From: Tetrahymena elliotti 4EA
Taxonomy: Eukaryota; Ciliophora; Oligohymenophorea; Hymenostomatida; Tetrahymenidae
Direction: 5' to 3'
Length of the DNA: 64,000 bases
Assembly (NCBI GenBank): GCA_000231825.2
Contig: JH720300.1
Location: 1,241,928 to 1,305,927 of the forward strand
Part shown: positions 16,906 through 21,380 of the stretch, in pieces
Numbering within the stretch: the first letter of the stretch is position 1
How the letters are laid out: every line of letters begins with the position of its first letter
Made by a program: the position numbers and the translations under genes
The notes under the pieces: model-generated
Database searches by the model: none
What the model was told of the DNA's origin: nothing
Seen by the model: the letters and a program-made list of their open reading frames with translations, nothing else

Positions 16906-18522
16906 TCATCTTCGTTCTAAGTTGAATTAAATCTAACCAGAGTAGTTAGGATTCTATCTTAATTACTAATCCATTATTTATGTATCAAAATTTTATTTAT
17001 TGTTTATTTACAGAATTTCTTTTGTTATTTTTAATTATGTTTGGCCTAAATAAGCGTCTGAGCAACAGGACACATAGCCATATGCTTTGGCTTCTATAGT
17101 ATCTCCCTCACTTACATATAAAGATATTTTATCATTCCAGGAGCAAGTGTCTTATATAATTGCTACAGGAGTTTTATGTATTTTAGAACCATTTTTGTAA
17201 ATAATTAAATAAGGATTCATTTTTTTTTAGTTTGATCCTTGTAGATTTATTGCTTTTATTTGAGATAATAAGAACACTTATGTATTACTATTATTAATTT
17301 TAAGAATTGCTGGTATTTAGTTTTATTGCTATTATTCATCTCCCTAATTAAGTATTTGAATCTCACTTAGATCATTGTTTAATATACTATAAATCTTTGG
17401 TATAACATCACTAGAACGACTTGTTCCTTTTGTTAAGAAGCCTTTTGGTTGAATAGCCCAACAGTTATTTTTGTATCTCTTAATACAAGCCATAAGACAT
17501 CCATTATATGAAGTGTGCTTAGATGATTTATTTGAAATATTAAATCTACAAAATTCTTTACTTGATTTTTTATCTACCAATCTGCAAAAAGCGCCAGATA
17601 CATCACTAAAATATCTTCCTGATGAAAAGACTGTAATAACAGACCAAATAGTTTCAACTTTTTATTCTACTTTCTTAAGGTTAATACTTATAACTTCGTC
17701 ATCACCTGATCCTACTCCTGTTAAATTATCTCCATGATGGTAAATAGATTTATTTTAGCTTACTTTGTTACCAAAATATATATTTTCTATCATATTACCC
17801 TCTATGTCAAAAGTTAAGATAGAAGAATCTATATCACAATTAGTATCCCATCCTAGACCAACAAATATTTCATTATCTGCTACGCTCTCGGGAATAATTA
17901 AAACATCATCTTTTTTGAGGTTGAAAGTTTTCCCACCTGACCAATTTTTTGCTTCTTAGAATACAGCCTCATCAAATCCACATTACAATAAAGCTTTTTT
18001 TACAGTACTTTCACATTCAACAAATGTTTTACCAACATTATCAGCTGCTTTAGTTCGATGTAAAACCCAATTACCATCATATTATTTTTCAATAATAAAT
18101 GGTAGATATGAAACTGCTTATGGATCATCGCAAATAGAAACACTTGATATTGGTTAATCATTTTCATAAACTTCTAAAACAGCAGAATTTAACTGACTTA
18201 AAGGAATACCATTATGAGAACTGACTAGCATTGCAAAATACCTAAGACCATATCTGCATTCAGCTAGATTTATTTTTACCATTTCGTTTTATCTTTCCTT
18301 ATCTCCACCTTTTTAATCTCCTGAAAGCTTAACATCAGCAACTTGAGAACTCTATTAATTATAGTAAACAACATCTTCTATTTAAGAGATATCATCAAGT
18401 ATCAAGCATTGTAAATCTAAATCTATAGCTTACTAAACTAGTGTATCCTCATTATTGCTCCATTTTAATCTTATTTCATAAGAACTGCTTTTTAAAGGTA
18501 TAATTTACTTATTTATTTCCAT
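16906..18522 (-). CDS. TerD-TerD-C2 protein, copy A (538 aa)
   Basis: A single exon from ATG 18522 to TGA 16906-16908, exactly 539 codons. Two TerD-type beta-sandwich domains come first. Domain 1 (about residues 15-175) is degenerate: the acidic loop is KGGDKERQNE instead of a GDDE cluster. Domain 2 (about 190-380) is canonical, with GLGWDTNCDIDSSI, then HHGDNLTGVGSGDDEVI, then a C-terminal segment ACIKRYKNNCWAIQPKGFL matching the last strands of TerD. A Gln-rich linker leads to a C2-type domain (about 415-530; NPYLIIYKNGSKIHKTPV, then CSWNDKISLYVSEGDTIEAKA). TerD proteins bind Ca2+ and belong to stress/tellurite-resistance clusters in bacteria; C2 domains dock on membranes, often with Ca2+. 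A cytosolic Ca2+-responsive membrane-associated role is inference. Tandem with the next gene. Confidence 0.88.
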
Positions 18523-18969
18523 TTCAATTAAATATTGAAAATCTTTTATTAAATTATATTATTATCTTTAATCACATAAAATATGTTGTTACTTTTAAAT
18601 ATTTGTTTAGAAGAAAATTAATCCATAAATATTTTTTAGAAATTGGTTTATTATATCCAATTTATTTTAAATTAACAGATAATACTAATAGAGCTCAGTT
18701 TAAGAGTGATAAATTTATCACTAAGCTTAATGAACAAATATCTATCGATAACTTTTTATTATTGTTGTCATCTAATTAATTATAAGTATATTTATAGATA
18801 CATTTTAGTTTTATATTAATTTTTAAAGAAGAATATCAGCTTGAATAAGAAAACTATTATTTAACTTACAAGAATTTACTTTTTCATTTAGGAAATTATA
18901 AAAAATGATTTATATGCAGTACCCTAGGGTACTGCCTATTTATAGGCTACATACATGTATCTAACAAGA

Positions 18970-19008
<39 letters not shown>

Positions 19009-19727
19009 TTTAATTATTGTTTTACTTTTTTTTCACCTGGTTTTTGGTGTTTATTTATTTTTTAAAAAAAATGATTCAAGTAAGATATCATGAAAAAAAT
19101 TATAATTTAAATTAAAATTGATTTGCTTAGTTTCTCTATTCATATTATTTAATTAGTTGGATATGAAAGATAGAATTTAAAATCAATTTAGCATATCTTT
19201 TAAATCATTACAAAATACATCAAAGATCAATATTGATAGCAAAAAATACAAATTTAGTTTCGAAAAATTAAACTTGAATGATTACAATCCTTTTTTTAAG
19301 TTGATTTAATAAAATTTAAAAATAAGTTCTAAATCATAAATTAAATTACATAAAAAACCTAAAACACATAAAATTATTAGGGATACATGTATTTTGAATT
19401 TGTCACTAAATAATATATTTCGAACTCCGAATTGATTGATAGATTAAATTCTAATAAACAAGTTAAAAAAGAAAATATCATATGATTATTTACTTGATTT
19501 GAAATTAAAATGGTTGAAAAAAATAATTGAGAAACCATAAAATTCTAATAAAATAGAATATATAATCATATATCTAAACTAAACAAATGAATGCGTAAAA
19601 GGAACTTAGTTAATTGTATTTAATATAATAGATAGCAGTAATATAATAAATTTTTAATTTATATAAATATCAGAATAAGAGGGAGATAATTAATTTTAAT
19701 TTTATATTCATCCATTCTTAATACCTT
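18523..19727. other. spacer between the two TerD-C2 genes
   Basis: About 1.2 kb. The half near 18523 should hold the promoter of copy A; the rest is the 3' flank of copy B. It contains the palindrome cluster and T-run listed separately at 18916-19007. No coding segment seen. Confidence 0.6.
18916..19007. repeat. palindrome cluster followed by a 34-base T run
   Basis: A perfect 20-bp palindrome GCAGTACCCTAGGGTACTGC lies at 18916-18935. It overlaps a hairpin GCCTA-TTTA-TAGGC at 18934-18947, and then comes the palindrome ATACATGTAT at 18951-18960. An uninterrupted run of 34 T follows at 18974-19007. The G+C content of the first palindrome is far above its surroundings. Hairpin plus T-run looks like a terminator, but in a ciliate that reading is unsafe. 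An element end, an excision-junction scar or a replication-slippage site are equally possible. Confidence 0.7.
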
Positions 19728-21380
19728 TCAAGAAGATTGAAGAATAGGAAGTAAACTAAATATAATTTAGCCTTAATAGGAAGGATGTAACTCATAATTA
19801 GAATCCATGATTTAAATTTCATACTGTTATTCAGTAACCTTGTTCAGTATGTCATTTGTTATTTGTATCTTTGATTAGCCTAAAAATGTATCAAAGCAAA
19901 ACATATTGTAGCTATAAGCTTTGAATTCTAGCAAATCTCCTTATTTTAAGTTTAATTATATTTTTTCTACCCAAAAAGGTGATGCTTAGTTTTCAACAAC
20001 AGATGTTTGCATGACTGTTTTTTTATTTAAATCTAATATAATATATGGTTTAAAATTTCTAATCCTTGATGAGTACAAATTCATTTTATAAACTGTAAAT
20101 ATTCTACTCAAGTTTTGCTATATATTTTAACTTTGTGATTATTATAATAAAGGTTATTGCTATATTTACTAAAATTCATTAGGTTAATATTATTCTTCCT
20201 CTTACATTATTATTATTGAGCTTAGATCATTTTCTAAAATTTTTTAAATTGAAGGCACCAAATCATTAGCATATCTTTTACCTTTACTCAAGAAACCTTT
20301 TGGTTGAATAGCCCAACAATTGTTTTTATATCTCTTAATGCAAGCCATGATACAACTATTACATGTAGCAAAGCTTGAGCACTTATCAGAAAGGTCATAT
20401 CTACAAAATTCTTTTCCTGTTTTTTTGTCTACTAACCTACTAAAAGTACCAGAGACCTCACTAAAGGTTTTTCCTGTAGAGTATATAGTAATAACAGACC
20501 AAATAGTTTCAACTCTTTCATCTACTTAGTTTAGATTAATTGTAATTACTTCATCATCACCATCTCCTACTCCAGTTAAGTTATCTCCTTCATGTTTAAT
20601 AGATTTATTTTCACTCTAGAGATTACCAAAGTATATATTTTCTACTAGTTTTCCAAATTTATCAAATGTCAATATAGAAGAATCTATATCACACTAAGTA
20701 TCCCATCCAAGTCCAACAAATATTTCATTGTTTGCTATGGTGTTAGGAATAACTAAGATATCATCTTTTTTTAGGTCAAAAACCTTATTTCCTAACCAAT
20801 TATTTGCTTCTTGAAAGAGTCCCTCATCAAATCCACACTAAATTAAGCCTTATTTAACAATAGCTTCACATTCAGTAAATGTTTTACCAATTTTATCAAC
20901 AGATTTAGTTTGATGGAGAATCCAAGTACCATCATATTACTTAGTAAAAATGAATGGTAGATAGGAAATAACATGCTCTTAACCACATAGTGATACACTG
21001 AAGATAGATTTATCATTTTCAATAACATCTATATTTGCAGATTTCAATTTATTCAGAGTTATGCCATCATGAGAACAAACTAAGATTGCTAAGTATTTAA
21101 TACCATATTTACAGCTAGCAAAATTTATTTTTAAAACCTCATTTTGCTTTTCTTCAGAACCACCTCTCTGATCTTCTGAGAGGGAAATACCTGCTTTTGT
21201 AGAACTTGTTTGATTATAGTAAACTACATCTTCAATCTGAGAAAGATCGTCCATAATCAAGCATTATAGATCTAAGTCGATTTCTAACTCCTCTGAAGAA
21301 TCATGACTGCTCCATTGTAATCTAACTTCGCAAAAGTTGCTTTTTAAGGTTTTTGTTTTTATCTTACTTTCTAATTCCAT
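19728..21380 (-). CDS. TerD-TerD-C2 protein, copy B (550 aa)
   Basis: A single exon from ATG 21380 to TGA 19728-19730, exactly 551 codons. TerD-1 spans about 18-180 and lacks the acidic loop (SEDQRGGSEEKQNE). TerD-2 spans about 196-385 and has GLGWD at 223-227, CDIDSSI, and GDNLTGVGDGDDE near 265-277. Cysteines sit at 340, 343, 347 and 355, the last three shared with copy A. A Gln-rich linker (about 390-425) leads to a C2-like domain at about 428-545 (KPYIILDLNKKTVMQT, SPFWVEKIQLNLKQGDLLEFKA, CFDTFLGQSKI). Copy A has the same order throughout and its TerD-2 C-terminal segment is identical over 19 residues, while the linkers diverge. No signal peptide, so probably cytosolic. Ca2+ binding is inferred from the family, not shown. 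Confidence 0.9.

Follow-up and report, generated by a model that had tools for sequence, protein, structure and literature searches.

A tandem pair of TerD-TerD-C2 genes in Tetrahymena elliotti: conserved TerD calcium-site residues beside a C2 domain without calcium-ligand aspartates

TerD domains are widespread in bacterial stress operons, where their biochemical role is unclear, and we know of little work on their eukaryotic members. Ca2+-dependent C2 domains carry five aspartates in loops 1 and 3. Here we examine two neighboring genes, A and B, of the ciliate Tetrahymena elliotti 4EA, located in a stretch of 64,000 nucleotides (contig JH720300.1, positions 1,241,928 to 1,305,927 of the forward strand; hereafter the window). 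Each gene encodes two TerD domains, a glutamine-rich linker and a C2 domain. The interest of the pair lies less in having a fusion than in the contrast between a TerD domain whose Ca2+-site residues are conserved and a C2 domain without its Ca2+ site, for which an unlinked gene of the same genome (P0085) with an intact C2 site provides the control.

Bacterial TerD (PF02342; Klebsiella 2kxt/2kxv, Streptomyces 3ibz) shares with the ciliate proteins the fold and the Ca2+-site residues of their second TerD domain; the ciliate chain differs by carrying two TerD domains plus C2. As quoted in PMC8779313, the Ca2+ sites of Klebsiella TerD comprise residues 40, 41, 42, 78, 79, and 89 and residues 29, 82, 84, and 88. 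The C2 domains of extended synaptotagmins, dysferlin, Munc13, and Itch have the same fold as those of genes A and B, in which the five Ca2+-ligand aspartates are replaced. Chlamydomonas radial spoke protein 1 (7jrj/7jtk/8glv) bears a remote resemblance to a tandem double TerD, but it is 814 residues long and no match to its chain was seen over the C2 part. Further eukaryotic TerD proteins are the dictyostelid P0077 (Acytostelium) and P0079 (Heterostelium, "cAMP-binding protein"), which differ in having one TerD domain by the profile used and no C2 listed. FAZ28/FAZ30 and TerD proteins of the Toxoplasma apex are reported as well. In one paper on eukaryotes that names both TerD and C2 domains, the two sit in different proteins. 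In the open-licence literature searched, we found no study of the Tetrahymena TerD-TerD-C2 genes or of their architecture.

Domain layout of genes A and B

The features of the two genes, translated with genetic code 6, are as follows (positions in the window).

16906–18522, minus strand: gene A, TerD-TerD-C2, 538 residues
18040–18483, minus strand: gene A first TerD, residues 14–161, Ca2+ sites partly degenerate (Pfam, isolated piece, 2.2e-11)
17383–17925, minus strand: gene A second TerD, residues 200–380, Ca2+ sites conserved (Pfam, fold, and alignment)
17287–17358, minus strand: gene A Gln-rich linker, residues 389–412 (model confidence below 50 at residues 394–411)
16909–17286, minus strand: gene A C2, residues 413–538, 0/5 Ca2+-ligand Asp (Pfam and fold)
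17053–17079, minus strand: gene A C2 loop 3, GYVSCCSDA
19728–21380, minus strand: gene B, TerD-TerD-C2, 550 residues
20895–21341, minus strand: gene B first TerD, residues 14–162 (Pfam, isolated piece, 4.4e-12)
20238–20783, minus strand: gene B second TerD, residues 200–381 (Pfam, fold, and alignment)
20109–20207, minus strand: gene B Gln-rich linker, residues 392–424 (model confidence below 50 at residues 396–422)
19740–20108, minus strand: gene B C2, residues 425–547, 0/5 Ca2+-ligand Asp (Pfam and fold)
19887–19913, minus strand: gene B C2 loop 3, SYNMFCFDT

An earlier note on this DNA, made from the sequence alone, had proposed the order TerD-TerD-linker-C2 for this tandem pair. Pfam supports all domains of both proteins, and fold comparison of the predicted structures also backs the second TerD and the C2 domain. 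The two proteins score 136.1 and 152.2 bits against PF02342 (gathering cut-off 25.3), and their first TerD domains score 44.0 and 46.3 bits as isolated pieces. The C-terminal part, on which the note had made its proposal depend, scores as C2 (PF00168) and adopts a C2 fold in both models. Gene B exceeds the cut-off with 38.4 bits at full length and 42.2 bits for the C2 domain alone; gene A reaches 31.4 bits for C2 alone and was not reported for the untrimmed frame.

No NCBIfam profile matched the TerD-TerD-C2 proteins over its cut-off, and RING_SCO0854 gave a weak partial match (25.8 bits for gene A and 28.8 for P0085, cut-off 600). In a viral structure library, the full architecture was absent among the 50 best matches listed. 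The top matches there are phage TerD-like proteins that cover about one domain; phage Ter genes are covered in PMC7824862.

Calcium-site residues in the TerD and C2 domains

The Klebsiella site residues were transferred to the ciliate proteins through alignments. In the second TerD domain of both window proteins, nine of the ten are identical and the tenth, L41, is isoleucine. All 11 proteins of the tandem lineage, to which A and B belong, have the same residues at these positions, and the two proteins of the type encoded on contig C30 (P0085 and T. utriculariae P0012) additionally have aspartate in place of N79. This pattern supports the prediction that the second TerD of genes A and B binds Ca2+. 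The note's description of the first TerD as degenerate holds in part. N79 is replaced by glutamine and D88 by asparagine in the window proteins, while the equivalents of D40, D42, D78, and E89 are kept. These four Ca1 acids are present in 13/13 Tetrahymena-type proteins. Across the tandem lineage N79 is always glutamine and D88 is asparagine, serine, or lysine; the C30 type has serine for N79 and retains D88.

The C2 domains differ from this picture. We placed the five aspartates on P0085 by the familiar C2 pattern and counted them in an alignment of the 13 Tetrahymena-type proteins. P0085 and P0012 have all five. Genes A and B have none, nor do the other members of the tandem lineage (zero in nine of 11) except P0006 and P0008, which have two each. 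The counts were repeated in a profile-based alignment of 42 C2-bearing proteins and hold wherever the positions align; in that alignment, gaps take up the loop-1 positions of gene B and part of loop 1 in P0002–P0005. The 29 C2-bearing proteins beyond the two Tetrahymena groups, 24 of which are kin from one cluster, include 21 with five aspartates, P0060 with four plus a glutamate, six with three, and P0059 with none. The other four clusters (P0018/P0086, P0015, P0060, and P0088) have 5, 5, 4 plus Glu, and 5. Since 22 of these 29 relatives keep four or five aspartates and P0059 has none, full loss is found mainly, though not exclusively, in the Tetrahymena tandem lineage.

At the lost site, loop 3 is hydrophobic or cysteine-rich, as in SYNMFCFDT (B) and GYVSCCSDA (A). 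The loop ends in CCFDT in the four relatives of gene A, and a third lineage has FFFD. Sequence identity in five orthologue pairs within lineages A and B is 75–82% for the second TerD, 64–76% for the first, and 50–58% for C2, compared with 85%, 82%, and 78% between P0085 and P0012. The faster divergence of C2 where the Ca2+ site is lost may reflect either relaxation or re-purposing.

Because the C2 domains of both genes lack the Ca2+-binding aspartates, any Ca2+ sensing probably resides in the TerD part and C2 is more likely a Ca2+-independent tether. The explanation we favor, at about an even chance of being right, is that genes A and B are an old tandem paralogue pair encoding a Ca2+-binding double-TerD module attached to such a tether. 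The double module would bind Ca2+ mainly through its second TerD, going by the conserved site residues. C2, on its flexible Gln-rich linker, would hold the protein at a partner protein or, presumably, a membrane, into which the hydrophobic or cysteine-bearing loop 3 may insert or at which it may be S-acylated. A Ca2+ signal would then alter what the TerD module binds, not where the protein is located, and recruitment by Ca2+ would be left to the unlinked copy, whose C2 site is intact.

Several points weigh against this explanation. Of the three domains, C2 shows the lowest identity between orthologues, a pattern that simple relaxation would also explain. Pfam detects no C2 domain in P0011, and the C2 of P0010 scores 20.0 bits at full length, below the cut-off of 22; both nonetheless align with the other tandem-lineage proteins over the C-terminal tail. 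In addition, the binding partner of many C2 domains is a protein, not a membrane. The same divergence and ligand loss, together with Pfam's failure on P0011, would suit the idea that C2 in the tandem copies has lost its function and is decaying. We give this idea little credence: the region aligns over its length in 11/11 tandem-lineage proteins from four species, the C2 fold appears in both models, and loop 3 keeps shared new residues.

The earlier note had envisaged Ca2+-controlled recruitment, in which Ca2+ drives C2 to the membrane, where TerD acts. Pfam and fold both confirm membership of the C2 family, and the five aspartates of P0085 and P0012 make such recruitment plausible for their lineage. 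For the window genes the complete absence of ligand aspartates contradicts it, and we consider it highly improbable as an account of the pair.

Paralogues, relatives, and the age of the pair

The TerD family search of the source genome gave four matches in three genes, and protein searches find the same three. The third is P0085, an unlinked TerD-TerD-C2 gene at L001:874-2427 on contig C30, where two weak C2-only matches also occur (E 8.1e-5 and 3.4e-4). An initial protein search returned 82 proteins. Among the named proteins, this layout occurs five times in T. thermophila, three times in T. malaccensis, and twice in T. utriculariae, and it recurs in the metagenomic proteins P0015, P0018, P0060, and P0086. 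Metagenomic proteins with the order C2-TerD-TerD include P0020, P0031, P0058, and P0064. P0058 is labeled "TerD family protein [archaeon]" from a metagenome bin; it is built like the metagenomic proteins near it and may be a misbinned eukaryote. These occurrences show that the fusion is neither unique nor limited to this locus. The two proteins are real, well-formed, and conserved, and they are already in databases with annotations. The note's impression of an undescribed architecture stands for the open-licence papers searched, which characterize no such fusion, and fails for the databases, where three named Tetrahymena species carry it and the fusion is not rare.

The T. thermophila copies (P0004, P0006, P0009–P0011) resemble gene B in length and layout with 57–66% identity, and all five are listed on a contig of size 819503, as against two copies in tandem here. 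Precomputed Pfam annotation finds C2 in three of them. Their names, "tellurium resistance protein" or "bacterial stress protein", together with TerD membership, would suit a tellurite or metal-stress protein that works like its counterparts in the bacterial ter system. The names appear to have been assigned automatically. In the bacterial system TerD occurs beside TerC, TerB, or TelA; no such co-occurrence was found in the source genome, where PF03741, PF05099, and PF05816 gave 0 matches in six frames with introns ignored, a search that divergent genes could escape. Positive controls for the three profiles were obtained in 9, 4, and 3 of 14 genomes. The bacterial pathway is thus not evident and a tellurite role is weakly supported; we regard it as improbable. 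The earlier label "stress protein" is left with the bacterial family name as its sole basis.

A maximum-likelihood tree was calculated for 22 proteins, with P0014 and P0066 left out and P0102 in place of the untrimmed gene A frame P0001. Three T. thermophila copies and one from T. malaccensis join gene A (100/100); gene B clusters with single copies from T. utriculariae, T. thermophila, and T. malaccensis (95/96); and P0006 groups with P0008 in a third lineage (100/99). P0085 and P0012, which are 82% identical, pair with each other (100/100) and fall outside the group of 11 tandem-type proteins (100/100); the tree leaves the branching order of the three tandem lineages unsettled. Orthologues of A and B in several species indicate that both lineages are older than the split of these species. 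A and B are thus old tandem paralogues whose duplication predates the species compared. Protein searches turned up no A-type copy in T. utriculariae and no C30-type copy in T. thermophila or T. malaccensis, in either case possibly owing to a database gap.

T. malaccensis locus numbers 009528, 009529, and 009530 are A-type, lineage-3, and B-type, respectively. Protein searches found no third-lineage member in the source genome. A third-gene remnant between A and B was sought by tblastn of P0006/P0008 with A and B masked and was rejected: the best E value in the window was 1.1, and the only match within 18523–19727 had E 7.2 on the plus strand. A lineage-3 gene at this locus may equally have been deleted or never have been present. 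Upstream of gene A lies a perfect 20-bp palindrome, GCAGTACCCTAGGGTACTGC, at 18916–18935, and about 40 bp from it a run of 34 T at 18974–19007. These elements are possibly a mobile-element footprint or a regulatory site.

Other candidate tethers and links to cilia

Double-TerD proteins (84, called with a TerD profile seeded with this same family) fall into 16 clusters, seven of which have C2-bearing members. A CaaX-like C-terminal box occurs in 8/42 C2-less proteins (P0014, P0017, P0023, P0025, P0028, P0057, P0066 from Prorocentrum, and P0067 from Anaeramoeba) and in 0/42 C2-bearing ones. Counted per cluster, the box is found in four of nine C2-less clusters versus none of the seven with C2-bearing members. 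The pattern matches 59 of 7504 internal positions in the 18 proteins tested. Simulation from internal 4-mers gives a chance of about 8.5e-6 for at least four of nine clusters, with a test set fixed after the clusters were seen, bacterial (Nocardia) proteins among the nine clusters, and P0087 and the 23 C2-less members of a 47-member mixed cluster, none with CaaX, omitted (8/42 with them included). Among other ends, P0016 closes with a hydrophobic stretch and P0052 begins MGNLCG. The recurrence of CaaX-like ends suggests that tethering may recur in the family, and the CaaX box and C2 may serve the same job. There is a counterweight: the box is found in 0/23 C2-less members of the 47-member cluster, most of which have no recognizable anchor; a cysteine four residues from the end also occurs in one of 22 single-TerD proteins (P0083); and the CaaX boxes were assigned by motif, for the most part in metagenomic and possibly truncated proteins.

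A search with a profile built from 13 double-TerD proteins retrieves Chlamydomonas radial spoke protein 1 with E 4.5e-9 over two weak stretches; the GDN...GDDE motif is not kept in the first. Structure 7jtk_A, which from its entry and length we take to be this protein, matches both predicted models over both TerD domains. A match to 9nw3_3A, a ciliary-tip structure, has an rmsd of 21.8, looks like a chance pairing of double beta-sandwiches, and was not used. No paper with both radial spoke and TerD appeared in the open-licence literature searched. Taken together with FAZ28/FAZ30 and the Toxoplasma apex proteins, radial spoke protein 1 directs attention to the cortex and cilia, and the resemblance could connect the TerD domain to cilia.

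These links fit a double TerD that is structural in the cortex or axoneme, with Ca2+ perhaps in a structural role only. We find such a scaffold doubtful: the match to radial spoke protein 1 is remote, the large rmsd to 7jtk_A reflects two domains arranged differently, we found no localisation data on the Tetrahymena proteins, and the conserved Ca2+-site residues exceed the needs of a scaffold alone. A wider form of the tether explanation, which we put forward tentatively, would treat the double-TerD module as an old eukaryotic Ca2+ sensor delivered to membranes or cytoskeleton by interchangeable tethers: C2, CaaX, a terminal helix, and possibly an acylated N terminus. In one Tetrahymena branch, C2 would have turned from a Ca2+ switch into a Ca2+-independent hydrophobic or cysteine tether, with the switch retained in the sister branch, and radial spoke protein 1 would represent an axonemal branch of the same module. 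Paralogues that differ in the Ca2+ competence of C2, in a genus with a laboratory model species, amount to a natural experiment on TerD and Ca2+.

Elsewhere in the window, the minus strand at 52178–54913 contains an open frame of 911 residues (table 6) in which hydrophobic segments come after cysteine-rich repeats, and which resembles ciliate cysteine-rich membrane proteins.
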